From Geitlerinema sp. PCC 7407 (GTDB lineage Bacteria; Cyanobacteriota; Cyanobacteriia; PCC-7407): a stretch of 64,000 nucleotides of DNA. Position 1 is the stretch's first letter. Every line of letters starts with the position of its first letter. Position numbers and translations under genes: made by a program. The notes under the pieces were generated by a model. The model saw nothing but the letters and a program-made list of their open reading frames with translations. It had not been told where the DNA came from and made no database searches. The DNA lies in assembly GCF_000317045.1 (NCBI RefSeq), contig NC_019703.1, forward strand, positions 2,406,501-2,470,500, read 5' to 3'. This document shows positions 21,367-59,060 of the stretch, one piece after another.

Positions 21367-21845
21367 TGATCCGATCGGGTTTGGGGGCGATCGCCCTGGT
21401 CCTGGGCCTAGGCTCGTCGGCCTGGGCAGAAACCCTGGTGGTCACGGGCCAGTTTGACCAGCGCACCTTCCCCGGCAGCAATCTCCAAAATGGACGCTTT
21501 CAGGGCCAGTTTGCCTACAGCGACACCACCGGCCAGCTAGAGCCTGAGTTCAGGCTGGATCTGGTGCGGGCCGACGGCAGCACGCTGTACACCTTCTCTC
21601 CCGCCACGGGCACGCTGACCCTCCAGGAGCCGATCCCGGGCATCTTTTCTCTGACCTTCCAGGGCTCAACGCCCAAGACGCCGGATCTGCCGAGGTTTCA
21701 GCTCTTTTTCGCTGATGGCGATCGCCCCGACGGAGACAGCCGCTTTCTCAGCGCCACCCTCGTGGATCCGGCGCGTCAGGCCCGGGGCGTCGTGCGGGCC
21801 ACCCTTCAAGACGCCAACGCCAGCACCGCTTCGCCCCGCCGATAG
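21363..21845 (+). CDS. secreted hypothetical protein
   Basis: 160 residues with a clear signal peptide (MMIRSGLGAIALVLGLGSSAWA, cleavage after AWA). The mature part is beta-rich, with Phe/Gly/Thr-rich strands like those of small exported cyanobacterial proteins; no PEP-CTERM anchor is seen. Its ATG overlaps the upstream stop codon. Its last 40 bases overlap the 3' end of the convergent GH57 gene. Confidence 0.7.
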   Translation: MMIRSGLGAIALVLGLGSSAWAETLVVTGQFDQRTFPGSNLQNGRFQGQFAYSDTTGQLEPEFRLDLVRADGSTLYTFSPATGTLTLQEPIPGIFSLTFQGSTPKTPDLPRFQLFFADGDRPDGDSRFLSATLVDPARQARGVVRATLQDANASTASPRR

Positions 21846-23305
21846 ATCTCCCGGGCGTAGTCCGTCCAGGCTCCCTGACCCCAGTAGCGAAAGCAGCTGG
21901 TCTGGAGCAGCAGGTTGTAGAGCAGGGCCTCTTGGTAGTCGGGGCGCTGGGTGACGGCTGGATCCGCCGCCACCTGGGCATCGTAGACCTGGTGGAAGCG
22001 AGCGCTGAGCTGACTCATCGGTTCTAGGACGTTTTCGTAGCCCTGGACCCAGCTCATGTGGTTGGTCCAGGAGGCCCCGTCCATATGAAAATTGTGATCG
22101 CTGGCTTTGAGATCGGCGATCGCCCGCTCCACCGCCTCCGGCGTCGCCCGCTCCGGGTCCACCTGCTGCCACAGCCGATGCTGCTGCACCGCCTGACAAA
22201 CCGGGAAGTCTTCTGGCTTCACACCTGCCGCCTCCACCAGCTCCAGGTACTCGGTCCCATTCATCGGCACCGTGCCCGTGCGTCCGCCCCCCTGGTCCCG
22301 CAGCTCGTACCAGATGCGGAAAAAGTCGCGGGGGTATTCATTCATCATCACGCCGCCATTTTCCCCGTCAGCGATCTGGGTGACCAGCGACGGAATGGAA
22401 ACCTCGCCGAGGGTCTGCCGTCCCCGCCCCTTCGCCTCGAAGTAGGGCTGCATCTGGGCCACCAGCTTGGTGTCGGAGCCCTGGGTCTTGATCAGGGCCG
22501 TCATGGCGATGGTTTCGCCCCGAGAGTTGCGAGCGACCAAGCGATTGGGCACGTACTTTTGGTCCTGGGGCAGGCCGTGGCCTTCGAGGGTTTCGACGGA
22601 GTGCTCCTGCACCATCAGCCAGCGATAGCCGCACTCCTGGAGAGCCTTGAGGTACTCGTAGAGGGTGTCGGGGTGGTTAGGCAGGTGCATCTCGGGGGGC
22701 GAGAAGCCCTTGACCCGGGCCAAGGCCTCGTAGCCAAACAGGGCCGCGAAGTACTGCTGCCAAGCCTGGATATGCAGTTTGATGTCTGGGATCGGCGTGG
22801 AGGGGACGACGGCGTGACTCCACATGGTCCCGAGCCACTCCACGTAGGGCCACATCGCGCGATCGCCCGTCAGGCGGCGGAGCTTCTCCAGCACGTCCTC
22901 GCGATTCATTTGGCGCAGGCCCCACAGCAGATTGCCGGAGTAGTCGAGCATGATGCGCGGGTTGCAGCCCTCGGCCACCAGCTGGGGGATAAAGTCGCCC
23001 ATGCGGCCATAGCAGTGGGCAAAAACGCTGGCGTTGTGGTTGTCGCCATCGTGGGGATGCTCGAACATGTGCTGCAAGTTGCTGATCAGCATCCCGTCGT
23101 GGCCAGCGGGGATCGTGGGCTGATGCATGTGAAGGGCGCACGCAAACCCAGCGCTGATGTCCGAGAGGCGCAGATTGGTGATGTCTCGAAAGAGGGGGCG
23201 ATCGGGGTTGACGACGCGCTGAATCGTGGATTCCCAGCCGCAGAGGTTGGGCAGTCCCGATCGCAGATCATCCAGGATGGGATGCTCACTCACCGATGAC
23301 GCCAT
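21806..23305 (-). CDS. glycoside hydrolase family 57 protein
   Basis: About 499 residues. The N-terminal half has GH57 features: ALHMHQPTIPAG near residue 58 (the family's early HXHQP motif), HNASVFAHCYGRMGDFIP and PPEMHLP with a Glu that may be the nucleophile. A C-terminal helical part follows, including NFHMDGASWTNHMSW. GH57 enzymes are alpha-amylases, 4-alpha-glucanotransferases, branching enzymes and alpha-galactosidases. Divergent pairing with glgA suggests alpha-glucan remodelling; the exact activity is not readable. The ATG at 23305 replaces a longer frame reaching 23350. Its end overlaps the convergent secreted-protein gene. Confidence 0.82.
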   Translation of the reverse strand: MASSVSEHPILDDLRSGLPNLCGWESTIQRVVNPDRPLFRDITNLRLSDISAGFACALHMHQPTIPAGHDGMLISNLQHMFEHPHDGDNHNASVFAHCYGRMGDFIPQLVAEGCNPRIMLDYSGNLLWGLRQMNREDVLEKLRRLTGDRAMWPYVEWLGTMWSHAVVPSTPIPDIKLHIQAWQQYFAALFGYEALARVKGFSPPEMHLPNHPDTLYEYLKALQECGYRWLMVQEHSVETLEGHGLPQDQKYVPNRLVARNSRGETIAMTALIKTQGSDTKLVAQMQPYFEAKGRGRQTLGEVSIPSLVTQIADGENGGVMMNEYPRDFFRIWYELRDQGGGRTGTVPMNGTEYLELVEAAGVKPEDFPVCQAVQQHRLWQQVDPERATPEAVERAIADLKASDHNFHMDGASWTNHMSWVQGYENVLEPMSQLSARFHQVYDAQVAADPAVTQRPDYQEALLYNLLLQTSCFRYWGQGAWTDYAREIYRRGEAVLALAS

Positions 23306-23575
23306 GGATTGTTCTCCAGAATGGAATGGAGCCGGTTGGCTCCCCGGCATTCTAGATCCTTCTCGCCCAGAAGCCCATGGGTACAGTTGCGGCGGAGGGA
23401 TTTTTGGCGGGCGATCGCCCCTGAAATACTTGCATCGGCGCGCAGAAGCCGTACCCTAGCACCTAGAAACTTTCCGCGCTGTTTATGTCAAACGGCGGGG
23501 CAAAGGATTCATCGGGAAATATATACTTTTGTGAAGTATAACCAAAGCCGTTTTTAAACAGGTAAGGAGCAAATA

Positions 23576-25051
23576 ATGTACATCGTGCAGATTGCCTCTG
23601 AATGTGCTCCTGTCATTAAGGCTGGAGGTCTAGGCGACGTCGTGTACGGCCTGAGTCGGGAGCTGGAAGCCCGCGGCCACTGTGTCGAGCTGATCCTGCC
23701 CAAATATGACTGCATGCGCTACGACCACATTTGGGGGCTTCACGACGCCTACCGCGATCTGTGGGTGCCCTGGTATGACGGCGAGATCCATTGCTCGGTG
23801 TACTGCGGCTGGGTACACGGCCGCGTGTGTTTCTTCATTGAGCCCCACTCTCAAGACAACTTTTTTAACCGGGGCTGCTACTACGGCTGCGAAGATGACA
23901 CCATGCGCTTTGCTTTCTTTAGCAAAGCCGCTCTGCAATTCTTGCAGCACAGCAACAAGCGTCCCGATGTCATCCACTGCCACGATTGGCAGACGGGCCT
24001 CGTCCCTGTGATGCTCTACGAGATTTTTCAGTACCACGGGATGGGCAGTCAGCGGGTGTGCTACACCATCCACAACTTCAAGCACCAAGGGTTCGCGGGT
24101 AATGAGCTTTTGGCGGCGACGGGCCTCAATCGCCCCGACCACTACTTCCACTACGATCGCCTGCGGGACAACTTTAACCCCTTTTCGCTCAATCTGATGA
24201 AAGGGGGAATTGTCTACTCTAATGCGGTCACGACGGTATCACCTCACCACGCCTGGGAGGCAAGTCATACGGAGGTTGGCTGCGGCCTGGGCCACACGCT
24301 GCATTTGCACCAAGGTAAATTTAGCGGCATTCTCAACGGCATTGACCATGATTTCTGGAATCCGGCGGGCGATCGCTACATTCCCTATCACTACAGCCGC
24401 GAGGACTTCGAAGAGAAGCACAAAAATACCAAAACTCTGCGCGAGCGCCTGATGCTCGACCATGCAGACAAGCCCATCATTGCCTACATTGGTCGCCTAG
24501 ATGGCCAGAAAGGCGTGCACCTCGTTCACCACGCCATGTACTACGCGCTCCATCGCGGGGCGCAGTTTGTTCTGCTAGGCTCGGCCACAGAGCCCGGCAT
24601 CAATGCCCACTTCTGGCACGAAAAGCATTTCCTCAACAACAATCCCGATGTGCATCTGGAGCTGGGCTTCAATGAGGAGCTGTCTCACCTGATCTATGCA
24701 GGGGCCGACATGATCGTGGTACCGAGCAACTTCGAGCCGTGCGGTCTGACCCAGATGATTGGTCTGATGTACGGTACGGTGCCGATCGTGCGCGGCGTCG
24801 GGGGCCTGGTGAATACGGTGTTTGACCGTGACTACGACCAGACCAAGCCGCCGGAAGAGCGCAATGGCTATGTGTTTTATCAGAGTGACTATCAGGCGCT
24901 GGAGTCAGCGATGGATCGGGCGATCGGCCTTTGGTTTGAGTATCCTGAGGAATTCCGCCAGCTGGCGCTCCAGGGGATGAGCTACGACTACTCCTGGAAG
25001 CATCCGGCCCAGGCGTACATCGATCTCTATGACCAGATTCGCTGCCAGTAG
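23576..25051 (+). CDS. glgA: glycogen synthase (ADP-glucose type)
   Basis: It elongates alpha-1,4-glucan from ADP-glucose (GT5). The 491 residues include the N-terminal substrate loop KAGGLGDVVYGLSREL near residue 15, the HCHDWQTGL segment near 140, the GT-B C-terminal motif GRLDGQKGVHL, and the catalytic ESFEPCGLTQ-type region, here NFEPCGLTQMIG near 387. Cyanobacteria usually have GlgA1 and GlgA2. The aromatic-rich, shorter N terminus suggests the GlgA2 type, but I am not certain. A good ribosome-binding site (AAGGAG at 23564-23569) precedes the ATG. The divergent GH57 gene and a strong terminator bracket it. Confidence 0.92.
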   Translation: MYIVQIASECAPVIKAGGLGDVVYGLSRELEARGHCVELILPKYDCMRYDHIWGLHDAYRDLWVPWYDGEIHCSVYCGWVHGRVCFFIEPHSQDNFFNRGCYYGCEDDTMRFAFFSKAALQFLQHSNKRPDVIHCHDWQTGLVPVMLYEIFQYHGMGSQRVCYTIHNFKHQGFAGNELLAATGLNRPDHYFHYDRLRDNFNPFSLNLMKGGIVYSNAVTTVSPHHAWEASHTEVGCGLGHTLHLHQGKFSGILNGIDHDFWNPAGDRYIPYHYSREDFEEKHKNTKTLRERLMLDHADKPIIAYIGRLDGQKGVHLVHHAMYYALHRGAQFVLLGSATEPGINAHFWHEKHFLNNNPDVHLELGFNEELSHLIYAGADMIVVPSNFEPCGLTQMIGLMYGTVPIVRGVGGLVNTVFDRDYDQTKPPEERNGYVFYQSDYQALESAMDRAIGLWFEYPEEFRQLALQGMSYDYSWKHPAQAYIDLYDQIRCQ

Positions 25052-25142
25052 CCCGCCGAGAAATGCAAAAGTCCAAAGAGACAGTTTTTGGGTAAATAAC
25101 GCAAATTAGCTGAAAATTTTCTGTATCTTTTCGCAGGTCTTT

Positions 25143-25173
25143 CAGGGATATCCGTAGATATCCCTGTTTTTTT
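25143..25173 (+). terminator. rho-independent terminator after glgA
   Basis: CAGGGATATC and GATATCCCTG are perfect 10-bp arms around CGTA, followed by seven T. It lies about 90 bp past the glgA stop. Confidence 0.92.
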
Positions 25174-25728
25174 GTTATTAAAGAATCGATTATTCTTTGG
25201 ATTTCCCGAGAAAACACCCACGCAAACTTGATAGGGCGATCGCAGTTTTTGCGGATATTCCTGCCGCCTATTCTCACAAATTGTCACGATCACTTCTTTG
25301 CGATCGCCTCCAAGGCAATTGATCTGCGCTCTATCGGTCATGGAGAAGATCGCCCCAGCTTTTACGCCTTTCAAGGGGCGATCGCCCTAGATTTTTACTT
25401 TGCTAGCCAAATTTTTTAGACATGAAATGCTGCTCACGGCAATAATCAGCTGAGCAATAGACCCAAACTTTTTGGAAAGGCCGCGAGACTTTCATGAAAG
25501 TTTCTAGTCAAACTTTGGGTCATGGCTAGATTATTCAATTAAGAGTTATAAACTTTTAGTGAGAAATCCAAAAAAGCATCAAGGTTATGAATAAAATGTC
25601 GCTTCTATGGGGCACGATGAAGAGTACCTTAGCTCAGGTTCAAAAGGGTTTGTAAACCTAAGAAACACCTGGGTAAAAGCACGTTTATTCACGATAAAGT
25701 AGGATATAGGATCTGCTTCTTGGCAGCC
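25174..25728. other. intergenic region between glgA terminator and the GAF kinase
   Basis: About 550 bp, AT-rich in the middle, with no convincing gene. It contains a nested palindromic block at 25460-25521, listed separately, and a probable promoter closer to the kinase. Confidence 0.5.
25460..25521. promoter_or_regulatory. nested inverted repeats, possible structured RNA or operator
   Basis: GACCCAAA (25460-25467) pairs with TTTGGGTC (25514-25521). Between them ACTTTCATGAAAGT (25488-25501) is a perfect 14-bp palindrome. The result is an outer stem with a second hairpin inside, about 210 bp upstream of the kinase start. No T tract follows, so a terminator is unlikely. Confidence 0.4.
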
Positions 25729-27393
25729 ATGAAACCCTTTCGCCTTCTGTATCTTGGGCATCAACCCGCATCTATTTCTCAAGTTCAGCAACAGCTAAGT
25801 ATGCTGCAACTCGACATTGCTTTGCGAACTGTGGAGACATGCTCCAAGTTTCTAGCGGCGATCGAGCAGTTTTCGCCCCACCTGATCTTGGCGGACACCC
25901 AGTCAGAAGAGTTTTCGGGCTATGGCGCGTTCGCCATCGTGCGCGATCGCTATCCAGGAATTGCGGTCATTTTGCTAGGACCCGAAATCAACGAAGCCGA
26001 ACGCTTAGCCTGGCTACGGCAAGGCGTCATGGCCTATCTGACACCCGAGCAGCTTCCTCAGCTGTCGATCATCATGCCGAGCCTGCTGGCTGAGGTATAC
26101 GCCTCCACCGAGCGGCAAGCCCAAGAGCGCTGGGCAAAAGGGATGGAGCACTTGGTGGGCGTGATTCAAGATCTCTCCTTGGCTCGCACCCTAGAGGAGA
26201 TCACCAAAATTGTGCGTCATGCAGCCCGCCACCTCACCGGGGCAGACGGTGCGACCTTTGTGCTGCGTGACGGGAACCAGTGCTACTACGTGGATGAAGA
26301 TGCCATTGGTCCACTGTGGCGGGGCAGTCGGTTCCCCATGAGCGCATGCATCAGCGGCTGGTGCATGCTCAATCGCCACACGGTTGCGATCGAGGATATC
26401 TATCAAGACGATCGGATTCCGGTCGAGGCCTATCGTCCGACCTTTGTGCAGAGCTTGGTCATGGTTCCCATTCGGCCCGAGTCTCCCATTGGAGCGATCG
26501 GCAACTATTGGGCCGAGACCCATGTGGCCACACCGGAGGAGATCCGGCTCTTGGAGATTTTGGCCAATACCACCTGCGTCGCCCTCGAAAATGTCCAAAT
26601 CTACGATGAAATCGAAAAGCGGGTCCAAGATCGCACAGCCCATCTAGAGGCGATGAATCATGAGCTGGAGGCGTTTGCCTATACGCTATCTCACGATCTG
26701 CGATCGCCTCTATCTGTAATTAATGTGCTGATCAGCTTACTGAAAATGAAGCACGCCACCGACCTAGGAGAAGAAGGGCTGGCCTATGTCGAACAGCTCC
26801 ACGGAGCCGTCAATCGCATGGACTGCTTGATCGATGAGATCTTGACGCTGCACCGCGTAGCCCAGTCCCCCATTCAGCCGATGATGATCGATCTCAGCCA
26901 GATGGTCAAAGAGATCCTGGATGATTTGCAGGCGATGCACCCGACCCGAAAAGTAGATGTTGCCATTGACCCAGAGCTGTCGGTATACGCCGATCCGGTG
27001 CTGCTGCGCACCATGCTCGAAAATCTGCTTTCCAACGCCTGGAAATATACTTCCAAGCGATCGCGAGCCACCATCGAAGTGGGCAAGCACGCCAACAATT
27101 CCCGAATTATCTATGTCCGCGATAACGGGGTAGGCTTTGACATGGCGAAGGCCGACAAGCTTTTTTCACCCTTCCAGCGCTTTCACGCCGCCACAGAGTT
27201 TCCAGGAACTGGCGTAGGACTCGCGTCGGTACAGCGCATCGTCCACAAGCACGGCGGCAACATCTGGGCTGAGGCCCAGCTCAACGAGGGTAGCACCTTC
27301 TACTTTTCGCTCCCTAGCCCTCCAAACTCAGCCTCTAACCCTCTCGGCGTCGTACTGAGCACTCCCAGCATCAACTCCGCCTCAACAAGATAG
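25729..27393 (+). CDS. GAF-domain sensor histidine kinase with N-terminal pseudo-receiver
   Basis: 554 residues. Residues 1-120 resemble a receiver fold (LLYLGHQPASISQV, then LILADTQS) but lack the acidic pair that normally binds Mg2+. A GAF domain spans about 140-290, followed by a short coiled coil. The HisKA box is LSHDLRSPLSV near residue 320, and HATPase has its N box ENLLSNAWKY near 430 and the G boxes DNGVGF and GTGVGLA. The HK core resembles phytochrome-type kinases, but no chromophore-binding Cys is evident in the GAF domain. The GAF domain is closely similar to that of the diguanylate cyclase at 41.5 kb. The ATG at 25729 is preferred to the TTG at 25720. Confidence 0.85.
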   Translation: MKPFRLLYLGHQPASISQVQQQLSMLQLDIALRTVETCSKFLAAIEQFSPHLILADTQSEEFSGYGAFAIVRDRYPGIAVILLGPEINEAERLAWLRQGVMAYLTPEQLPQLSIIMPSLLAEVYASTERQAQERWAKGMEHLVGVIQDLSLARTLEEITKIVRHAARHLTGADGATFVLRDGNQCYYVDEDAIGPLWRGSRFPMSACISGWCMLNRHTVAIEDIYQDDRIPVEAYRPTFVQSLVMVPIRPESPIGAIGNYWAETHVATPEEIRLLEILANTTCVALENVQIYDEIEKRVQDRTAHLEAMNHELEAFAYTLSHDLRSPLSVINVLISLLKMKHATDLGEEGLAYVEQLHGAVNRMDCLIDEILTLHRVAQSPIQPMMIDLSQMVKEILDDLQAMHPTRKVDVAIDPELSVYADPVLLRTMLENLLSNAWKYTSKRSRATIEVGKHANNSRIIYVRDNGVGFDMAKADKLFSPFQRFHAATEFPGTGVGLASVQRIVHKHGGNIWAEAQLNEGSTFYFSLPSPPNSASNPLGVVLSTPSINSASTR

Positions 27394-28000
27394 GTTAAAA
27401 ATATCAAGCTATACAAATAAGAGTATACAGATCATATATCATGGCCATCTTAGGCCATGGCTAAACAGCATGACTGTCAATGGGTTTAGCCATCACTATC
27501 TTGGCCATAACTATACCAAGGCAAATAGCAAAGATAGAGATGCGCCAAAGATAAAAACAAAGAGATAGAAATTAGAGAAGTAGAGAGATAGAGATACGGA
27601 AAGATAGCTTGTCCTGAAGCAGAGAAACACGCTCAAGCATGTAGCGATGAGCGATGAGTTATGGCTTTGATTTCAGGTGTTTTCTGAGCCTCTAAGCCAG
27701 CAAACTTGCGAAATCTTCAGTGAATCTTTATTTTTGTGAGCTAATTTGCGCTCATATCCCTAAACCTTCTAGGATCAAAGGAGTTGAGGCTCAATCCCAA
27801 AGCGAGGGAGGATTGACCCAAGTTGGGTCAATGTTCTTCACCTGAGCCCTGAGTCTCTGGAATTTGGGCCATGGACGGGACACAGCTGCCCCCTTGCCTT
27901 CTTGATCAAAGATAAGGAACTTGGCGGGACGAGCGATCCCAATCCTGAGCATGCTTTTGTGTTCTTGGTGCCGGAGGGATGGGGATTCCCGATATCATCC
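27394..28000. other. intergenic region before the RcaC-like gene
   Basis: About 600 bp with no convincing gene. The left part has GGCCAT-rich repeats, including an ATGGCC/GGCCAT hairpin at 27441-27458. The middle (about 27530-27610) is a purine-rich run of AGATA-like repeats. The right part carries two palindromes, listed separately. The RcaC-like frame is open from 27902, but the ATG at 28001 fits the family. Confidence 0.5.
27784..27832. promoter_or_regulatory. pair of palindromes upstream of the RcaC-like regulator
   Basis: TTGAGGCTCAA (27784-27794) is an 11-bp palindrome. Eighteen bases on, ATTGACCCAA and TTGGGTCAAT are perfect 10-bp arms around a single G (27812-27832). The two lie about 170-220 bp upstream of the regulator's ATG. 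Such symmetric sites suit an OmpR-type protein or another dimeric regulator. Confidence 0.45.
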
Positions 28001-29875
28001 ATGAAAATTCTGGTTGTTGAAGATGATGAGCTAACGGGGTTAGCCCTTTCGCAAGCGCTGACCTATCATCATTACACGGTTGATGTGGCGCAGGATGGCC
28101 GAGCGGGTCTAACGCTGACAGAGACCTATGAGTATGATCTGCTGCTGCTTGATGTGCTGGTACCGGAGCTAGACGGCATTAGTCTGTGTCGGAAGCTGCG
28201 CGATCGCGGCTATCAAAAGCCTATTTTGCTTCTCACGGCGAAGGATTCCCGCACCGATCGCATCACAGGACTAGACGCCGGGGCGGATGATTATGTGGTC
28301 AAGCCCTACGATCTTTCAGAGCTTTTGGCGCGGATTCGGGCGCTTTTGCGGCGCAGTCAGGAGACTCGGCCGACGCCGACGCTGAGCTGGGGAGAGCTGT
28401 GTTTCAATCCGATTTCCAGTGAGGTGACCTATCGCCAGCAGGCGATCGCCCTCACCCCCAAAGAGTACAGCTTGCTAGAGCTCTTTCTGCGCAGTCCCCA
28501 GCGGGTTTTTAGCCGGAGCGCGATTCTCGATCGGCTGTGGTCCCTGGGGGCTTCGCCCGCCGAGAGCGCTGTCACCACCCACATCAAGGATCTGCGCCAA
28601 AAGCTGCGAGCCAGCGGTCTGCGAGCAGAGGTCATCGAGACGGTGTATGGTCTGGGCTATCGCTTGGCCACGGCCCCCAGCACCACAATGCCTGAGCCCA
28701 AAGCCCAGGAAAAAGCCGCTCGACTCGCTCAGGGGATCGAGTCCTTGAGGCAGGTGATTGAGCGCTTTCGCCATAGCTTTGGGGATCAGGTGGCGGTTTT
28801 GGAGCAGATGCAGGAAGCCCTGCAAGCTGGCACTCTAGCAGCAGATCTGTACCAGCAGGCCTACCATGAGGCGCACAAGCTGGCAGGATCTCTGGGCATG
28901 TTTGGCTATCCAGCAGCCTCCAAGACGGCGCGAGAAATCGAGCATTTGCTGGTGGGATCGTCTCCCGAGCAACTCGATGCCAAGCTGTTTTCTGCGCTGC
29001 TGCAACGCCTGCAAACGGAGATGGCCCAGCCCCCCGAGGCCACGGTGGCGGATCACTTTCCGCAGCCCCAGGCTGAGGCTCAGCCCAAGGTTTTGTTGAT
29101 TGATGATGACGTGGCGCTGGCGGAGGCGCTGCGGAGCGCGGCGATCGCCCATCGACTGGAGCTTCAGGTCGTGACAGATTTGTCCGCAGCGCGCCAAGTG
29201 CTGATCCAGTGCTCCCCCGAGGTGGTGCTGCTGGACCTGAACTTTCCGGAGGAAGAGGAGGGCGGCATGGCGCTGCTGGCAGAAATTCGGCAGCAAATGC
29301 CCAAGCTGCCGGTGCTGGTATTCACGGGGCGCGACAGCCTGAGCGATCGCCTAGAGGCGTCGCGGCTCGGGGCTCAGGGCTTTCTCAGCAAGCCAATTCC
29401 CACAGATCAGGTCATCCAGGCCGTGTTGCGGCTGCTGACGCCCCAACCCGCCGATGAGGCGCGCATCCTGGCCGTGGACAACAACCTTCACACCCTCCAG
29501 ACGCTAGCCGAGCTGCTGCGCCCCTGGGGGGTCAAGGTGTTTACCCTGGATGATCCCCAAAATTTTTGGCAAGGGCTGACTAGCACCCTGCCAGACTTGC
29601 TGATCCTGGCCCAGGAGATGACCGAGATTGGCGGCCTGGAGCTGTGTCAGGTGGTACGCCAAGACTGGCGCTGGGGCAATTTGCCGATTTTGGTGATGAC
29701 GTCCCAAACTGACAGCGCCTTTGTGCGGGCGCTTTTTCGGGCCGGGGCCGATGACTTTATCCGCACACCCATCCTAGAGCCAGAGCTGATCACCCGGGTG
29801 CTGTGTCGCCTAGAGCGGGGGCGATCGCGCTTGGCGGCCAAAGGGCTGTCTGCCCCATTCTCGGTCTCACCCTAG
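28001..29875 (+). CDS. RcaC-like multidomain response regulator (REC-wHTH-HPt-REC-REC)
   Basis: 624 residues. Receiver 1 (about 1-120) has its acidic pair, phospho-Asp in LLLLDVLVPELDG and Lys in LLTAKDS. An OmpR/PhoB winged helix follows (about 125-225, with PKEYSLLELF and a TTHIKDLRQKL recognition helix). An HPt domain (about 235-345) carries the phospho-His in HEAHKLAGSLGMFG. Receiver 2 (about 364-480) has Asp in VVLLDLNFPE. Receiver 3 (about 488-605) is degenerate: its Asp position lies in LLILAQEM. Fremyella RcaC, the light-colour regulator of phycobiliprotein genes, has REC-wHTH-HPt-REC, so this is RcaC-like with an extra pseudo-receiver. The ATG at 28001 is chosen over an upstream in-frame start at 27902. 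Confidence 0.85.
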   Translation: MKILVVEDDELTGLALSQALTYHHYTVDVAQDGRAGLTLTETYEYDLLLLDVLVPELDGISLCRKLRDRGYQKPILLLTAKDSRTDRITGLDAGADDYVVKPYDLSELLARIRALLRRSQETRPTPTLSWGELCFNPISSEVTYRQQAIALTPKEYSLLELFLRSPQRVFSRSAILDRLWSLGASPAESAVTTHIKDLRQKLRASGLRAEVIETVYGLGYRLATAPSTTMPEPKAQEKAARLAQGIESLRQVIERFRHSFGDQVAVLEQMQEALQAGTLAADLYQQAYHEAHKLAGSLGMFGYPAASKTAREIEHLLVGSSPEQLDAKLFSALLQRLQTEMAQPPEATVADHFPQPQAEAQPKVLLIDDDVALAEALRSAAIAHRLELQVVTDLSAARQVLIQCSPEVVLLDLNFPEEEEGGMALLAEIRQQMPKLPVLVFTGRDSLSDRLEASRLGAQGFLSKPIPTDQVIQAVLRLLTPQPADEARILAVDNNLHTLQTLAELLRPWGVKVFTLDDPQNFWQGLTSTLPDLLILAQEMTEIGGLELCQVVRQDWRWGNLPILVMTSQTDSAFVRALFRAGADDFIRTPILEPELITRVLCRLERGRSRLAAKGLSAPFSVSP

Positions 29876-29943
29876 GGCCGTAGCCCTTGGGTTAAGCTCC
29901 CTTGCATCCCTGTGGCACAATCGGGCAAAGGGCGCGAGTATGC

Positions 29944-30333
29944 ATGTCCCGCACGCAAGTTATGGTGAAATACGTTTTGGTCATAGACGATGAGGAGCGC
30001 ATTCAGGAAGTTGTTTGCGCCTGCCTAGAGGACATTGGCGGGTGGCAAACGGCGATCGCAGACTCGGGGGAAGCTGGCTGGCAAGCGGCCACGGCCTCAC
30101 CGCCCGACGCGATTTTGCTGGATGTCTCGATGCCGGATATGGATGGCATCACCCTGTACGAAAAGCTGCAAAATGAGCCCAAAACCCAGGGAATTCTGGT
30201 TATTTTCTTGACGGCAAAGGTGCTGCCAGCGGATATGGCCAAGTTTCAGGCCCTGGGAGTGGCGGGAGTGATTACGAAGCCGTTTAATCCGCTGACGCTG
30301 GTGGAAGAACTAAAGCAGATATTGGGCTGGTAA
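29944..30333 (+). CDS. single-domain response regulator (CheY-like)
   Basis: About 129 residues forming one receiver domain: acidic pair in VIDDEERI, phospho-Asp in ILLDVSMPDMDG, Thr/Ala in FLTAK and Lys in ITKPFNP. There is no output domain. The next gene encodes a similar receiver with the same unusual CLEDIGGWQ-type alpha1-beta2 segment, so the two are probably tandem paralogues. The ATG at 29944 is used; another at 29962 (MVKYVLVIDDE) is equally possible. It lies 68 bp after the RcaC-like gene, likely in the same transcript, and ends at a terminator. Confidence 0.85.
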   Translation: MSRTQVMVKYVLVIDDEERIQEVVCACLEDIGGWQTAIADSGEAGWQAATASPPDAILLDVSMPDMDGITLYEKLQNEPKTQGILVIFLTAKVLPADMAKFQALGVAGVITKPFNPLTLVEELKQILGW

Positions 30334-30368
30334 GGGACGCCCCAGCCAGACAGAAAGTACTCCTCCAG

Positions 30369-30398
30369 CAGAGCCGCGATCGCGGCTCTGGCTTTTTT
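30369..30398 (+). terminator. terminator whose stem is a 22-bp palindrome centred on HIP1
   Basis: CAGAGCCGCGATCGCGGCTCTG (written as two halves: CAGAGCCGCGA and TCGCGGCTCTG) is a perfect palindrome at 30369-30390, followed by GCTTTTTT. The GCGATCGC element forms the tip of the hairpin. It lies 35 bp after the first receiver gene. Confidence 0.88.
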
Positions 30399-30669
30399 GT
30401 GCCCTCGGACCGAGAGCCGCCAGCCTCAGGTCACTCGCCAGAAATCTTCCCGGGCGGCGGCGGTCTTCATAGAATCCTCATTTTATTTCAGTAGTTTGAG
30501 GAGTGGCGCCGCTCAACAATGCTTCGAGCGGCCGTCCCCTCCATCATGCATCTACCGCTTCCGGGCCTGCTCTGTCGGGCTCGGGGCGGCGTTTCTTCGC
30601 CCTGCTGCGAGCAGAGGGGCTGCTTTATTCGAGGTTAAAAGCCCTATGAGAGTTCGAGGGACGATCACG

Positions 30670-31062
30670 ATGCTGAGCCATCACGTGCTGATTGTGGATG
30701 ATGAAGCGAATATTCGAGAGATTTTGCAGGCCTGCCTGGGAGACGTGGCGGGGTGGCAGGTCTCGGCGGCAGCTTCGGGGCCAGAAGGACTCACCAAGGC
30801 GATCGCAGAGCGCCCAGACGCCATTGTGCTGGATTTGATGATGCCAGAAATGGACGGGATCGCCTTTCTGCGGCGGCTGCGGATGCACCCCGAAACCGAA
30901 ACCATTCCCGTGGTGATTTTGACAGCCAAAACCTATTTGGTTGAGCTGGGACAGCTCGATCACTTGGGGGTCGCAGGGGCGATCGCCAAGCCCTTCAATC
31001 CGCTAGAGCTCCCCACGCAGATTGCTCGAGCGCTGCAGTGGCACGCTGCCATTGATGCGTAG
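30670..31062 (+). CDS. single-domain response regulator (CheY-like), paralogue of the preceding one
   Basis: About 130 residues. The receiver motifs are intact: IVDDEANI, IVLDLMMPEMDG, ILTAK and AKPFNPL. The alignment with the preceding gene product is strong over the whole length (shared DEExIxEIxxACLxDxxGWQ and GVAGxIxKPFNPL patterns). The ATG at 30670 has GAGGG nine bases upstream; an in-frame ATG at 30646 and open frame further upstream are less likely. A terminator separates it from its paralogue, so the two may be expressed independently. Confidence 0.85.
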   Translation: MLSHHVLIVDDEANIREILQACLGDVAGWQVSAAASGPEGLTKAIAERPDAIVLDLMMPEMDGIAFLRRLRMHPETETIPVVILTAKTYLVELGQLDHLGVAGAIAKPFNPLELPTQIARALQWHAAIDA

Positions 31063-31420
31063 CTAAAACCCGATTTTTGGCGGATTTTCTCAAATACTTA
31101 ACCTCCTAAAATTTTTTCAGGTTTCTGAGATTACAGTCTCAGATCTTCGATCAATCGCTCCTCAAGGCTCTATCAAACGCTCAGGCAGCGAAGATTCGTT
31201 GTGTCTTGAAACTGTGTTAAAAGATACTTTTCAATCTAATTGGAACTTTTGTCAACAAAGCTGATAAAGCTAGCAAAATGAATCATGTTTTTGCAATCGC
31301 CTTTTATATCTTCAGTAATTCTTCATCTTTATAGCCTATGCTCAAAGAAGAGCTGAACATACAATTTGTATTAAGTTCAGGCAGTCTGTTAGATACTCGT
31401 ATCAATTTGTCGAGGTTAAC
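31063..31420. other. AT-rich intergenic region
   Basis: About 358 bp without a convincing gene. Short overlapping frames on both strands near 31304-31532 conflict with the small zinc-ribbon gene and look like chance. It presumably contains that gene's promoter. Confidence 0.4.
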
Positions 31421-31618
31421 ATGGAAAATTGCCCTTGCTGCTCTAGTCAAATGCTTCGGCATATTCGACAAAACAGCGCTTACTGGTTTTGTCGCCACTG
31501 TTGGCAGGAAATGCCATCTTTTTCTGAGCTAGAAACCTCGAAACTTTTCTTAAAATCTTCGATTGGTTATCATGCAAAACCCAAGCTAATTCGAAGCCTA
31601 GTAGGGGTCAGTCCCTAA
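31421..31618 (+). CDS. small zinc-ribbon-like protein
   Basis: 65 residues. The N-terminal half has two CXXC pairs, CPCC at residues 4-7 and CRHC at 24-27, spaced like a compact zinc ribbon, with the aromatic run YWFC preceding the second pair and QEMP after it. I recall short proteins with this same opening in many cyanobacteria, usually as small stand-alone or N-terminal modules, with no known function. The ATG at 31421 has GAGG upstream. The C-terminal half looks unconserved. Confidence 0.6.
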   Translation: MENCPCCSSQMLRHIRQNSAYWFCRHCWQEMPSFSELETSKLFLKSSIGYHAKPKLIRSLVGVSP

Positions 31619-31822
31619 ACAAGGTCTTCCTGCTAGGCCCAAGTAGGACAGGAGTGATCGGCATTTTTAGGCAGCGTCTCCTCAAAGCAAGTACTGCCTA
31701 GTTGAGTGACTAGATGTGTGATTGTTGAGGAGTGGATAACAACATTTTAAGAAATCCCGCAGGGAGGCCAATTCTAGCTTAGAGTCCAAGCGCTCATGAG
31801 GGAAAGCCTCTACCATCACAGG
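31619..31822 (+). ncRNA. candidate structured RNA ending in a terminator
   Basis: No frame of note, but several inverted repeats follow each other: TAGGCAG/CTGCCTA (31668-31674, 31694-31700), TGTTG/CAACA (31723-31727, 31740-31744), TCCC/GGGA (31755-31758, 31762-31765) and GAGG/CCTC near 31797-31810. They lead into a rho-independent terminator at 31823-31885. This could be a small RNA or the structured 3' UTR of the zinc-ribbon gene. It matches no RNA family I recognise. Confidence 0.35.
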
Positions 31823-31885
31823 GCGATCGTTGGTTTTGAGAGACCCCAATTTTAGCTCCTAGTCTCTCGGTAACGATCGCTTTTT
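31823..31885 (+). terminator. rho-independent terminator with HIP1-like stem base
   Basis: GCGATCGTT (31823-31831) pairs with AACGATCGC (31872-31880), and GAGAGAC (31838-31844) with GTCTCTC (31862-31868), followed by five T. It lies well upstream of the next kinase gene. Confidence 0.75.
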
Positions 31886-32082
31886 GCTCAGTGTCAAGAT
31901 TTTTTCTTTTTTTAATTATTTTCTGTCCAGATCAAGAAAGGTTTTTCACGAATTTTGCGAACACCAGTCATAGGAAGCCGTTCAGTCTTTCGGCCCCATA
32001 GAAGCGAAAAATCTCTGACGATCGCTTTTGGCAAACAAACGCTCTGTCTGAGACATTTTTAGGACTAATACCAGGTTGAGGA

Positions 32083-34026
32083 ATGGCCATGGCGAATTTT
32101 CTGTTTGATAATTTTAATATCCCTCAGCGGGATAGATCTCAAACAGCGATCGCCTCCAAGAGTCGTCTGGACGCTAACCTTATGCAGGGCTCAGAATACA
32201 ACCTCTTCGAGCCTGCGCTTCAGGCGGCCCTCCAGCGAGAGCAATCCCTCAACTGGCTGCTCAAAATGATTCACGCGTCGCTCGATCCAGCGACGATCGT
32301 CACCACCGCCGTGTGCGAAACGGCCCAGCTCCTGGCGGCAGACCAAGTCCTGATCCTGCAAGGCCTGCCCTCCCAGGCTTGGCAACTCATCAAGAGCTGG
32401 GCACCGGTCAGCGAGCCCGAGCACCAGGCGATCGCCGAGGTCCTCAGCTCACCGGATTTGGCGATCGCCGTAGAGCGCTCTCAGTCGATTCAGCTGTGCG
32501 GCCTGGAGGCGACAGAGGGCTTTGCGGTAGGCCCGACCTACTTGCTCGTGCCCCTCACCTACCAGCTGGCGGCCTGGGGCGTGCTGGTCCTGATGCGGGT
32601 CCAGGGAAACCGCTGGCGCGAGAGCGAGGTGCAGTTTCTAGAGACTGTGGCCGATCAGGTGGCGATCGCCCTCCACCAGGCGGAAATGCACCAGCAAATC
32701 CAGCAGATCAACGCTCAGCTCGAAGCCGAGATCCAAACGCGCACCGCAGAGCTGCAATCGGCCCTCGACTGCGAGACGCTGCTCAAGCAGATCACCGATC
32801 GCGTCCGCGACTCCCTCGATGAACACGACATTCTGCAAACCACCGTCGAGGCGCTGGGGCAGTCTCTGGGCCTCGACTGCTGCGACACGGTCCTCTACGA
32901 CGCCCAGCGGCTCACTTCGGTCATCGACTACGAGTACACCCGGCCCGGCATCCCGTCGCGCCAGGGCCAAGCGCTGCCTCTGGGCGATCGCCCCGAAATC
33001 TATGAGCAGCTCTGGGCGGGCCAGACCTTTGCGTTTTGTCAGATCGCCTCTAGCAGCATTCGCAATCACTCAGCGATTTTGGCCTGCCCGATTGTGGACG
33101 GCACCAAGATTTTTGGGGATTTGTGGCTGTTTCGGCCCACTCAGTCGACCTACAGCGATCTCGAAATTCGCCTGGTCAAGCAGGTTGCCAATCAGTGCGC
33201 GATCGCCATTCGCCAGGCCCAGCTCTATCAAAGCGCCCAGGGCCAAGTCCAGGCCCTAGAAGCCCTCAATGGCCTCAAAGACGACTTTCTGAGCACCATC
33301 TCCCACGAGCTGCGCACGCCGATTTCCAACGTGAAGATGGCGGTGGAGATGATGGCGCTGATTCTCGATCAGTACCCTGCGCTGGCTGAGCTGACCCTGG
33401 ATGTCCACACGACTCCCCTGGGGCAGTACCTCAAAATTGTCCAGCAGGAGTGCGATCACGAGCTGCACTTGGTCGAGGACCTGCTGGAGCTGCAGCACCT
33501 GGACGCCGGCACGCGCCCCTTGGCCCTCTCCCAGGTGAACTTGGCGGACTGGCTGCCCCACGTTCTCGAGGACTTCGAGGCACAGACCCAGCGCAAAGGG
33601 CAGCGGCTGCAAATCCAGGTGGCAGAGACGCTGACGCACTTTACAACAGACGCGTTTGGCCTGAGCCGGATTCTGCGGGAGCTGATGACCAATGCCTGCA
33701 AGTACACGCCAGCGGGTGGACAGATTCGCGTGAAGGCAGACTGGGTTGATGGCTATCTCCAAATCGAAGTCAGCAATTCGGGCGCTGAGATCTCTCCAGA
33801 CTCCCTCAGCTCGATTTTTGACAAGTTTTATCGGGTGCCCAATGGAGATCCGTGGCGACACAGCGGGATGGGGCTCGGATTGGCGCTGGTCAAGGGATTG
33901 ACGGAGTATTTGGGAGGCTCGATCGGGGTCAAAAGCGATCGCAGCAGCACCTGCTTTACGCTGCGTCTCCCCTGCGGGGCGATCGCCGATTTCTCTATGC
34001 GGGACGAATCTTTTGCAGATCGCTGA
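32083..34026 (+). CDS. double-GAF sensor histidine kinase
   Basis: 647 residues. After a variable N terminus come two GAF domains (about 55-205 and 235-395) joined by a coiled coil (about 205-235). The kinase core has the H box TISHELRTP near residue 407 and an HATPase domain with N box RELMTNACKYTP and G box GMGLGLAL. It lacks a membrane segment, so it is cytoplasmic. The kinase core, including the FYRVPNGDPWRHSG segment, closely resembles that of the REC-PAS kinase at 56.8 kb, showing module sharing. Neither GAF has an obvious bilin-binding Cys motif. The ATG at 32083 is chosen; another follows two codons later. Its last 32 bases overlap a small minus-strand gene. Confidence 0.88.
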   Translation: MAMANFLFDNFNIPQRDRSQTAIASKSRLDANLMQGSEYNLFEPALQAALQREQSLNWLLKMIHASLDPATIVTTAVCETAQLLAADQVLILQGLPSQAWQLIKSWAPVSEPEHQAIAEVLSSPDLAIAVERSQSIQLCGLEATEGFAVGPTYLLVPLTYQLAAWGVLVLMRVQGNRWRESEVQFLETVADQVAIALHQAEMHQQIQQINAQLEAEIQTRTAELQSALDCETLLKQITDRVRDSLDEHDILQTTVEALGQSLGLDCCDTVLYDAQRLTSVIDYEYTRPGIPSRQGQALPLGDRPEIYEQLWAGQTFAFCQIASSSIRNHSAILACPIVDGTKIFGDLWLFRPTQSTYSDLEIRLVKQVANQCAIAIRQAQLYQSAQGQVQALEALNGLKDDFLSTISHELRTPISNVKMAVEMMALILDQYPALAELTLDVHTTPLGQYLKIVQQECDHELHLVEDLLELQHLDAGTRPLALSQVNLADWLPHVLEDFEAQTQRKGQRLQIQVAETLTHFTTDAFGLSRILRELMTNACKYTPAGGQIRVKADWVDGYLQIEVSNSGAEISPDSLSSIFDKFYRVPNGDPWRHSGMGLGLALVKGLTEYLGGSIGVKSDRSSTCFTLRLPCGAIADFSMRDESFADR

Positions 34027-34192
34027 CCGCAACGCCCACCAGACAGCGTCCTTCGGGATTGATGCAGATGGCGCGTCTTTGTACCCTGTCGGTGGCAACA
34101 ATGGTTAAAGGACCGCCATAGTCTGCTTTGATCTTCGGATCTGGGCCGACGTAGCGCACAGCGTCGCCAGCGATCAGGTCTTCTACGACCAT
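33995..34192 (-). CDS. small conserved-looking hypothetical protein
   Basis: About 65 residues, with a GDAVRYVGPDPKIKADYGGPL core, an ICINPEGRCLVGVAV strand pair and a DLQKI end. It looks like a small beta-barrel (SH3-like). I believe short proteins of this type occur in cyanobacteria, but I know no function. The ATG at 34192 is preferred to an upstream frame reaching 34240, which codes through unconserved sequence. It overlaps the 3' end of the double-GAF kinase on the opposite strand. Confidence 0.55.
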   Translation of the reverse strand: MVVEDLIAGDAVRYVGPDPKIKADYGGPLTIVATDRVQRRAICINPEGRCLVGVAVSDLQKIRPA

Positions 34193-34244
34193 AGGATTGT
34201 CTGAAGGGCAGGGTCTTTTGCGATGGAGTCGCCCGGTCATAGGC

Positions 34245-34270
34245 CCAGAGAGGCGCGATCGCGGCTCTGG
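34245..34270. terminator. HIP1-centred hairpin
   Basis: CCAGAG and CTCTGG flank GCGATCGC with short asymmetric spacers. It resembles the terminator at 30369, sharing the GCGATCGCGGCTCTGG half, but has no T tract, so termination is uncertain. Confidence 0.35.
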
Positions 34271-34469
34271 CAGCTGAAGGCGAAATGGGGACTAGCCATG
34301 AAGAGGGTCAATGCAGTATTTCCCCATTGAACAAGCCAACGCTAAATGTCAGGGAAATTTAACTCAATCTTTTTAGAAGTTTGGGCAAGTTTGCATCTAT
34401 TTACAGCGGGAAATACCTTGCGATCGCCCCAAAAAATTGGGCAAGATGCGATCGCCCGATCAAAGCACG

Positions 34470-35042
34470 ATGTTGTTTGTCCCTGCCAAAATGATGGAAC
34501 CCGCAGCGCTCGGCAATGCCTGGACCAGCACCCTCGAAAGCCGCAGCCCCGAGGCGATCGCCCAAGCACGCCGCCTGCTCGACGTGACGCGCTACTGCTC
34601 CCTTTCAACTTGCTCATCTGCGGGAGAGCCGTGGGCATCGCCGCTGCTGTTTGCCTATGACCGGCGCTGGCAGATCTACTGGAGCTCAGCCGTGGTGGCT
34701 CAGCACTCCCAAAACATCTATCAGACCGGCAAAGCGGCGATCGCCATCTACGCGTCTGGGGTGCCCCAGGCCGCTGTCGAAGGGCTCTATCTCTCGGGAA
34801 GCGCGCAAGAGCTAGAGCGCGATCGCGCTGCCGAAGTCGCGGCTCTCTTCGATCAGCGATCGCCTAGGCCCACGCCGCGATCGCCCAAGGATTACCAAGA
34901 TCCGTCTCCCCGCCGGTTCTACCAGTTTTCGCCCGAAGCGGTCTGGATCACGGGCGATCGCCTGCTGTACCAAGACCAGCTCATCGACACCAAAATTCGC
35001 CTTGATTTAGAGAGTTTGATCGCGGCTTTCGAGGCTGAATAA
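34470..35042 (+). CDS. pyridoxamine 5'-phosphate oxidase-like flavin-binding protein
   Basis: About 190 residues. The N-terminal half has the FMN-binding split-barrel pattern: YCSLSTCSSAGEPWASPLLFAYD, then WQIYWSSAVVAQHSQNI and KAAIAIYAS. The C-terminal part has RRFYQFSPEAVWITGD, typical of the HugZ/pyridoxamine oxidase-like families. The cofactor may be FMN or F420-like; the substrate is unknown. The in-frame ATG at 34470 is chosen from several (34446, 34470, 34491) because it excludes sequence encoded by HIP1 elements. The ribosome-binding site is weak. Confidence 0.7.
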   Translation: MLFVPAKMMEPAALGNAWTSTLESRSPEAIAQARRLLDVTRYCSLSTCSSAGEPWASPLLFAYDRRWQIYWSSAVVAQHSQNIYQTGKAAIAIYASGVPQAAVEGLYLSGSAQELERDRAAEVAALFDQRSPRPTPRSPKDYQDPSPRRFYQFSPEAVWITGDRLLYQDQLIDTKIRLDLESLIAAFEAE

Positions 35043-35169
35043 TTCCCGAAACGGCGCTCTAATGGGTTGAATCTAGTCTGTGGGCCTTTTGCCCCTGATA
35101 AGCTTGCGAATGCAATCGTGATTGAAGTAGCGATCGCTCACAACGTTCAACCCACTGGAGAATCAAAAC

Positions 35170-35763
35170 ATGCGACGCCAAACAGTCGCCCTCGGAGCCA
35201 GCCTCGGTTGCGTCTTTGCCGTGCTGGGTATCCTCTTCAGCAGCCAACAACCAACGCCTCAGACCACCGCCCGGGCCGATAGCCAACCGGCAGCGTCAGC
35301 GCTCACGCCCGCGCAGCAGCAGTTGCTCGAAGCCTCCGGCCTTGCGATCGCCCTTCCGACCTATGTCCCGCGGGGATTTGTCCTTGAGAAGGTCATAACA
35401 GAAGCCAGTCGTCAAGCCAGAGTCGGCGGGGTTAGCTACGCCCTGCTTTATCGATACTACGATAGCAGCACCGATCAGGATTTTTGCTTCGCGATCGAAG
35501 CAACCAACGGCGGCATCGGCGGTATCCCCACGGGTGAAGAGAGCTTTGCCATTGACTCTCCCACTTTCGGTGAGAGCACCCTAGAGTATGGCATCTACGG
35601 CGCAGCCCAGGGGCCAACCTATATCTCTAACTGGCTGGGCGAAGAAACAGGGCCTTTTTATCGCTTTGTGGGGGCTGATGTCCTGCCGAGCCTCTCTCGC
35701 TGTGAAAATATCCCTGCTCAAACGGCTATCCAAGTGTTGGAGTCGCTCACTTACCAAAATTAG
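35170..35763 (+). CDS. exported hypothetical protein
   Basis: 197 residues. An N-terminal hydrophobic segment (about 7-24) looks like a signal peptide or membrane anchor, followed by a Thr/Gln/Ala-rich spacer. The rest resembles small exported cyanobacterial proteins with a PTYVPRGFVLEKV beta-rich start and two Cys (in DFCFAIE and SRCENI). The function is unknown. GGAGAA lies eight bases before the ATG. A hairpin follows the gene. Confidence 0.65.
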   Translation: MRRQTVALGASLGCVFAVLGILFSSQQPTPQTTARADSQPAASALTPAQQQLLEASGLAIALPTYVPRGFVLEKVITEASRQARVGGVSYALLYRYYDSSTDQDFCFAIEATNGGIGGIPTGEESFAIDSPTFGESTLEYGIYGAAQGPTYISNWLGEETGPFYRFVGADVLPSLSRCENIPAQTAIQVLESLTYQN

Positions 35764-35835
35764 GCAGCTCAAAATTAGGCCGTAGAGATAGCCAGGATCA
35801 TCAGGCATTCAGGCTTTTGGGCGTTGAGAAGAGAT

Positions 35836-35880
35836 TTGTATGGCTGCTGGGCGATCGCCTAGGAGCCATACAAGCCTTTC
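35836..35880 (+). terminator. hairpin with HIP1 at its tip after the exported protein gene
   Basis: TTGTATGGCT (35836-35845) pairs perfectly with AGCCATACAA (35864-35873), and GGCGATCGCC forms an inner stem. A short pyrimidine run (GCCTTTCT) follows, so it may act as a terminator. A second, weaker hairpin (TCTCACC/GGTGAGA, 35990-36008) lies between this gene and the convergent ATPase. Confidence 0.6.
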
Positions 35881-36054
35881 TATTCAGGATTAGACCGTGG
35901 ACCGTCATCGAGAAAATATATTTCTCTCTATAGCGAATCTCTCTGCGAGTGTCTCTTTTGCTTTGAATGGACGTCTTGCTTGCTCAATTTCTCACCTGGT
36001 TGGTGAGAGATTCCTTAGATCTAGATTTGCACTCATGAGTCTCTGGATCAGCCA

Positions 36055-42661: not shown

Positions 42662-43033
42662 AAAGCTACAAACCAAAAAGCTCTAGATAGGTCTCTAGAT
42701 CCAGATCGAGAGGAGCGCCTTTCCAAAGTCAAAGAATCTTGAAAATTGGCCATTTATTAGTCATTTGAGCTGGGATCAAGCAGCACCAGAATCTAGCTTC
42801 ATCCAGGCTTTAATGTACTCACAAAAACTTAACTTATGTATAAATCCTAACGAAGCCATCATCGGTATACTGAAAAAATCTCTCGACCAGCATTAAACCA
42901 AAGCATTCATCTTGAATGACGAGTTGTGGTCAAACAACACCTGCTGAGCGATTCATTTCGGCAGGCAAGGGATGCTCGGGGCAAGCCTAGTCAGAAGAGG
43001 TAATTTTTATAAACTTCTACAAAACTTGGATAA
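42662..43033. other. intergenic region between the two c-di-GMP genes
   Basis: About 370 bp without a gene or a strong repeat. Several short AT-rich stretches near 42830-42870 and 43000-43030 may be promoter elements of the GGDEF-EAL gene. Confidence 0.4.
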
Positions 43034-58961: not shown

Positions 58962-59060
58962 AGCAACCAAGCTACCCGCAATAGTTCATCACTCGCTGAG
59001 TATAGCGGTTTGGTGGGCTGGTGGGGCGATCGCCCCACCAGCCGCGCGATCGCTCCAGAA

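Follow-up and report, generated by a model that had tools for sequence, protein, structure and literature searches.

A likely rewired RcaC-type phosphorelay in Geitlerinema sp. PCC 7407 whose regulator ends in a pseudo-receiver

Introduction

RcaC-type response regulators are widespread in cyanobacteria, and the members or kin named in the literature cited here are RcaC and RfpB. RcaC acts in the complementary chromatic acclimation of Fremyella diplosiphon. Three CheY-like receivers plus a winged helix have been assigned to it (PMC4390838). RfpB, a regulator of far-red photoacclimation with the CheY-like protein RfpC and the phytochrome RfpA as partners, also combines receivers with DNA binding; its two receivers flank the DNA-binding domain, and the C-terminal one is absent in some strains (PMC4390838). 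For tandem receivers lying by an HPt domain, phosphotransfer has been measured in the CdgK/CdgS system of Anabaena PCC 7120, in which the phosphoryl group passes from the kinase histidine to the aspartate of REC2, to the HPt histidine and then to the aspartate of CdgS, with only one of the tandem receivers feeding the HPt (PMC9927289). Receivers lacking the phosphorylatable aspartate account for approximately 4 to 13% of receivers, depending on the definition and the set (PMC12632262).

The locus described here lies in a stretch of 64,000 nucleotides of the Geitlerinema sp. PCC 7407 genome, hereafter called the window. Its regulator resembles RcaC, as described in PMC4390838, in having three receivers and a winged helix, and single receivers that are RcaF-like in kind lie alongside it. 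RfpB, according to its description in the same source, is set apart by having two receivers rather than three. CdgK differs in that its receivers and HPt are located on the kinase and not on a DNA-binding regulator, and in that its dispensable receiver retains the aspartate (PMC9927289). The last receiver of the Geitlerinema protein shares with pseudo-receivers the lack of the phospho-aspartate in a predicted receiver fold that is kept, but it is the third receiver within a multi-receiver phosphorelay regulator. An earlier note on this DNA had given RcaC as REC-wHTH-HPt-REC, with two receivers, and had therefore viewed the third receiver of the present protein as an addition. Both statements have to be corrected, since RcaC itself is described with three receivers (PMC4390838) and colinear three-receiver relatives are common.

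Architecture of the locus and of the regulator

The two kinases and two single receivers that had been reported as neighbours of the regulator gene are all present: HK1 and HK2 flank it, and RRa is the next gene directly 3' of it. Start codons were checked for the regulator, RRa and RRb, as was the ATG of HK1.

25720-27393, + strand: HK1, histidine kinase with an N-terminal receiver-like stretch (weak, below the Pfam cut-off) followed by GAF-HisKA-HATPase; ATG at 25729 (Pfam, kinase tree)
28001-29875, + strand: RcaC-type response regulator, 624 aa (Pfam, alignments, AlphaFold2 model)
29962-30333, + strand: RRa, single receiver, RcaF-like in kind (ORF list, Pfam, relatives' loci)
30369-30400, + strand: terminator-like hairpin with a T-run, 3' of RRa (terminator search)
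30670-31062, + strand: RRb, second single receiver (ORF list, Pfam, relatives' loci)
32083-34026, + strand: HK2, histidine kinase GAF-GAF-HisKA-HATPase (Pfam, kinase tree)

The open frame of the regulator stops at 29875. The ATG at 28001 (MKILVVEDD) is most likely the true start, given that at least 90% of 90 aligned proteins retain Met1; the TTG at 27902 was discarded as merely an in-frame codon further upstream. Pfam detects three Response_reg domains, one Trans_reg_C and one Hpt in the order REC-wHTH-HPt-REC-REC, which correspond to REC1 (aa 1-120, D51), the winged helix (127-224), HPt (237-345, H292), REC2 (362-480, D412) and REC3 (486-606, A537). The receiver followed by a Trans_reg_C winged helix, both above the Pfam cut-offs, places the protein among OmpR/PhoB regulators. 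The homology to relatives is colinear over the full length, including HPt and the two C-terminal receivers, and D51 of REC1 and H292 of HPt are intact; the RcaC-type architecture proposed earlier is thus borne out by both the Pfam domains and the full-length relatives. The N-terminal 223 residues also match the NCBIfam model for RppA (NF041734), with a whole-protein score of 282.5 against a cut-off of 250, but this model covers 229 positions and REC-wHTH only, whereas the regulator is about 400 residues longer and continues with HPt-REC-REC, so that it does not have the RppA architecture.

An AlphaFold2 model built on an alignment of 90 sequences reached a mean pLDDT of 88.2 and a pTM of 0.48, indicating that the individual domains are sound and their mutual arrangement is not. 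In a profile search against solved structures, the best 60 of 89 matches span REC1-wHTH or REC1 alone, and the best 50 Foldseek matches of the model are mainly OmpR/PhoB regulators, plus PleD and related proteins. The hairpin at 30369-30400 suggests that the regulator and RRa may close one transcription unit, although it is a weak sign by itself; six terminator-like sites were detected in the region, compared with a mean of 3.4 in shuffled sequences.

An eroded active site in the last receiver

The active sites of REC1 and REC2, as well as His292 of HPt, are intact in the alignment, and the contrast within the protein lies between its two C-terminal receivers.

29084-29440, + strand: REC2 (aa 362-480), active site complete, D368 D369 D412 T442 K464 (alignment)
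29456-29818, + strand: REC3 (aa 486-606), active site erased, N494, N495, A537, T541, T589 (alignment, AlphaFold2)

At the site positions, REC3 has D493, N494, A537, T567 and T589, with alanine at the phospho-aspartate position, an asparagine within the acidic pair and a threonine in place of the lysine. An alignment of receiver active sites had been set beforehand as the test of the claim that the third receiver lacks its phospho-aspartate; no conserved aspartate was found in REC3, and the domain stands as a degenerate receiver. It matches PF00072 and keeps the predicted (beta-alpha)5 fold, with five strands and five helices and a block pLDDT mostly above 90 in the AlphaFold2 model, and it falls among aspartate-less receivers on these grounds. 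We take D51 to be also the number of the phosphorylated aspartate in the first receiver of RcaC, identical to that of REC1 here, and the aspartate of the RcaC last receiver is presumably D576; against this assumed position, the last receiver of the regulator differs in carrying A537.

Departures from conserved columns, defined as those conserved in at least 85% of relatives, are concentrated in REC3 (5 of 39 columns), compared with none of 43 in REC1, one of 34 in the winged helix, none of 12 in HPt and none of 7 in REC2; outside REC3, the four domains together have 96 conserved columns and a single departure, in the winged helix. All five REC3 departures fall on the active site or next to it, and the remaining 34 conserved columns of this domain are kept. 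Three of the four canonical REC3 site residues are among the five departures (hypergeometric P 0.004, in a test devised after the departures had been seen). A single sequencing error behind the missing aspartate can be dismissed, since five conserved columns differ at the site. Because the departures are confined to the active site, the pattern argues for a retained, non-catalytic role of REC3 over decay. The number of departures alone is not rare, being equalled or exceeded in 19 of the 162 relatives.

Variation of the receivers across the family

Matches at E 1e-90 or better occur in 191 of 388 genomes, some of them spanning only about residues 1-345, and other shorter relatives also exist, such as those matching residues 1-343. 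The family comparison was based on 162 distinct full-length relatives, picked for their similarity to the query and for matches that start no later than residue 30 and reach at least residue 580, so that all of them have three receivers by construction. In this set, all five site residues are intact in REC1 of 149 proteins, in REC2 of 56 and in REC3 of 138, and the phospho-aspartate is present in 154, 122 and 148, respectively. As judged from these alignments, the HPt-to-REC1 step is the conserved core of the family, since 161 of 162 relatives retain the HPt histidine and 154 the REC1 aspartate, and the aspartates of REC2 and REC3 are more replaceable. At least one of the five site residues of REC2 is changed in 106 relatives. 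Thus, the middle receiver is usually the variable one in the aligned family, and the query is reversed, with a complete REC2 and a dead REC3.

The REC3 aspartate is lost in 14 of the 162 relatives, which amounts to eight changes on a tree of 163 rows that includes the query. Eight of the 14 form one lineage (support 100) in which the aspartates of both REC2 and REC3 are gone, and whose relays may run on external receivers only. No relative has lost both the aspartate and the lysine of REC3 while keeping REC1 and REC2 intact. The five nearest relatives on the tree keep the REC3 aspartate, and all five have a kinase adjacent or fused (the fifth being L041). Compensation of REC3 loss through retention of REC2 was considered and is unsupported across the 162 relatives: REC2 is intact in 4 of the 14 proteins that lost the REC3 aspartate and in 52 of the 148 that kept it (Fisher P 0.77), and tree-based pairs revealed nothing, the informative pairs being too few to reach significance. 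A takeover by REC2 is therefore no rule of the family.

A weak trend of another kind was observed among the 162 relatives, in which REC2 is intact in 9 of 13 proteins with a damaged REC1 and in 47 of 149 with REC1 intact. It fell short of significance when independent pairs from the tree were used (median P 0.125, range 0.0156-1), for which the REC1 acidic pair was taken as D8/D9, compared with E7/D8 in the counts over the 162 relatives.

A GGDEF or GGEEF motif occurs within the open frames of 30 of the 162 relatives, and a second RcaC-type regulator in the same genome carries a GGDEF extension. This paralogue belongs to an operon (L272:4218-14616) that comprises the regulator with its GGDEF extension, a PAS-rich kinase, a single receiver and a kinase resembling HK2 that carries a receiver at its N-terminus.

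A receiver-pattern scan of genome contigs, run with a pattern common to many bacteria, gave 80 loci, nine of them cyanobacterial by name and none from Fremyella. A search of plasmids gave nine homologues, eight annotated and none of these named RcaC, the remaining record being unannotated. Four plasmid-borne relatives were examined, and the three annotated ones (L264, L265, L267) lie among copper or heavy-metal genes, including those for a CopA-family protein or multicopper oxidase and a cation/heavy-metal P-type ATPase. This suggests a metal-responsive branch, as a lead for those members only.

A kinase missing from the operon

In relatives, the recurrent arrangement is a regulator gene, a sensor kinase gene after it and finally a single receiver or two. 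Among 139 loci, the first signalling gene to follow on the same strand within 600 bases encodes a kinase in 72 cases and a single receiver in 10; in 6 loci, regulator and kinase are fused. Another 40 loci lack a kinase or receiver within this distance, among them the paralogue in the same genome (kinase about 1 kb downstream, L272) and a few whose kinases lie 670-3300 bases away, and 11 have too short a flank. Thus, a sensor kinase is directly downstream or fused in 78 of the 139 loci, and it is absent from this position at the regulator studied here. Wide loci of near relatives contain at least one downstream single receiver in 18 of 20 cases and two in 14. Of the 14 relatives without the REC3 aspartate, 10 retain a kinase in the 600 bases downstream; in other members, loss of REC3 is therefore not coupled to loss of the kinase.

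A candidate for the missing partner was found outside the window:

G000:C1:2475812-2478163 (L271:5813-8164): CHASE3-PAS histidine kinase, 783 aa, with CHASE3, a sub-threshold GAF, PAS, HisKA and HATPase

This gene starts approximately 39 kb downstream of the regulator end and 5 kb beyond the window. The operon kinase of the closest relative (G072, CHASE3-PAS-PAS-HisKA-HATPase) has its best match in the Geitlerinema genome at C1:2477027-2478121 (57%, E 1.5e-134), and the regulator-fused kinase of another relative (G185) also matches best at the CHASE3-PAS kinase (66%, versus 59% for the kinase of the paralogous operon). A quick tree with 119 kinase rows places the CHASE3-PAS kinase as sister to the G185 fused kinase (support 88). 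Both lie in a set of 52 rows (support 95), and every one of the 51 rows other than the CHASE3-PAS kinase is a kinase encoded downstream of an RcaC-type regulator or fused to one. These similarities and the quick tree are most simply explained by a departure of the cognate kinase from the operon, and the CHASE3-PAS kinase is probably the displaced partner of the regulator. The earlier proposal of a complete multi-step phosphorelay at the locus is accordingly retained in part: the multi-step character is supported by the domain anatomy and by the gene order of relatives, but the local set is probably incomplete owing to the departure of the usual operon kinase.

As for the flanking kinases, HK1 belongs to a distinct set of six rows (support 99) that excludes the operon kinases, and its relatives gave no pointer when examined for a partner; it could nevertheless be the true partner simply through adjacency. 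The kinase core of HK2 belongs to a four-row set, starred in the tree, together with kinases near three RcaC-type loci (the own paralogue L272, L241 and L041), two of these three being on the strand opposite to their regulator. HK2 may thus represent a second, older companion of the regulator.

Regulator and sensor kinase share one open frame in six relatives (L244:7833-12293 from G185, L161, L176, L167, L175 and L044). The 1487-aa frame of L244, the only one of the six scanned with Pfam, contains three receivers, Trans_reg_C, Hpt, PAS repeats, HisKA and HATPase. Directly upstream of this G185 fusion lies a copy, 76-77% identical, of a 514-aa protein encoded at 21806-23350 of the window, which has no Pfam match even at E 10; a tentative GH57 label for this protein was not borne out by Pfam. 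Elsewhere in the window, 41537-44728 and 52457-58386 contain GAF-GGDEF and GGDEF-EAL genes, followed by a gene that encodes 1433 aa with both HisKA and HisKA_2 kinase parts and overlaps a REC-PAS-kinase gene.

Palindromes upstream of the regulator

Two upstream palindromes had been reported, and both exist:

27784-27794, + strand: 11-bp palindrome TTGAGGCTCAA (palindrome search)
27812-27832, + strand: 21-bp perfect palindrome ATTGACCCAAGTTGGGTCAAT, some 170 bp 5' of the ATG (palindrome search)

The shorter one, TTGAGGCTCAA, is at chance level, because about 1.1 palindromes of at least 11 bp are expected per 607 bp. The longer one is unlikely under a simulation that yields 0.17 palindromes of at least 20 bp per 64 kb, a null that understates real sequence, as the window has four of them. 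Two of these four share a GCGATCGC core, at 30369-30390 (terminator-like) and at 59016-59043; the latter, a 28-bp perfect GGCTGGTGGGGCGATCGCCCCACCAGCC, is the longest palindrome in the window. ATTGACCCAAGTTGGGTCAAT has one exact place in its own genome and two others at 2 and 3 mismatches, and the local ORFs at the 2-mismatch place (L262) suggested no connection. Exact copies in 263 loci were restricted to three overlapping stretches of its own locus, so ATTGACCCAAGTTGGGTCAAT is unconserved in the loci examined. No promoter-like or terminator-like sites were found in 27380-28020, the upstream RNA fold was scarcely better than in shuffles (z -0.76), and Rfam gave no match over 25000-36000.

OmpR-type regulators generally bind direct repeats. 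KdpE is a described example of this mode of binding (PMC3264566). A search of the genome for L-box-like sites, the type of target associated with RcaC, using what we take to be the L-box pattern, gave nothing convincing, with none at 0-1 mismatch and 11 at 2 mismatches, compared with 3 for the reversed control.

A proposed phosphorelay and its alternatives

A rewired RcaC-type phosphorelay is likely at this locus. The reading that we prefer, with a probability of roughly 0.55, is that phosphate passes from a kinase to RRa and/or REC2, then to HPt and REC1, and so to DNA, with REC3 being non-catalytic. The sensor kinase, for which the CHASE3-PAS kinase is the best candidate and HK1 or HK2 the alternatives, would phosphorylate RRa and/or D412 of REC2, and the phosphoryl group would be transferred to His292 of HPt and further to D51 of REC1. 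Phosphorylation of REC1 would lead to dimerisation of the regulator and to binding of DNA by its winged helix, and REC3 would remain outside the phosphate chemistry as a structural or docking module. CdgK, with a single one of its tandem receivers feeding the HPt, is the comparable measured case (PMC9927289). Points against this reading include the lack of a link between REC3 loss and REC2 retention in the family, the eight-member lineage without either aspartate, the 19 of 162 relatives with at least as many REC3 departures and the adjacency of HK1. A more specific version, in which the entry port has been switched so that REC2 is the HPt donor, REC3 a phosphorylation-independent docking or brake module and the kinase gene uncoupled from the operon, is offered tentatively.

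The same lineage enters into a contrasting explanation, in which REC2 is idle, HPt is fed solely by the stand-alone RRa in the role of RcaF, and loss of REC3 is neutral because RRa suffices. Single receivers recur beside the regulator in relatives, and the eight proteins without REC2 and REC3 aspartates keep the HPt histidine and D51, and all eight are followed downstream by a kinase and a receiver resembling RRa. Yet REC2 of the regulator keeps all five catalytic residues and does not depart from any of its 7 conserved columns, and given that this site is altered in 106 of 162 relatives, its intactness here suggests use; we regard entry through RRa alone as doubtful. The HPt histidine is conserved in all but one of the 162 relatives, which favours a phosphotransfer route by way of HPt and speaks against an ordinary two-component regulator in which HK1 or HK2 partners REC1 directly and the HPt-REC2-REC3 tail serves chiefly as an allosteric brake. 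Such a scheme fits the position of both kinases at the flanks of the regulator gene and the score of the REC1-wHTH part, which alone exceeds the RppA cut-off, but HK1 groups apart from the operon kinases, and the scheme seems unlikely. The least probable explanation is that REC3 is a functionless remnant decaying since the adjacent kinase left. A displaced kinase and a dead REC3 do coincide at this locus, and the five nearest relatives retain both the REC3 aspartate and an adjacent or fused kinase; however, general decay would not be expected to spare 34 other conserved columns and strike only at or beside the active site, and most REC3-Asp-less relatives (10 of 14) retain the downstream kinase.

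Significance

By its aligned sequence, the regulator is an RcaC-type factor whose last receiver has apparently turned into a pseudo-receiver, a variant member of a widespread cyanobacterial family. If the port switch were true, tandem receivers would be interchangeable ports by which regulators change kinases. Mutants of one protein give only a partial answer as to which tandem receiver feeds the HPt, and the disarmed receiver described here, together with the 14 of 162 relatives that have lost the REC3 aspartate, constitutes a ready-made set for testing this question.
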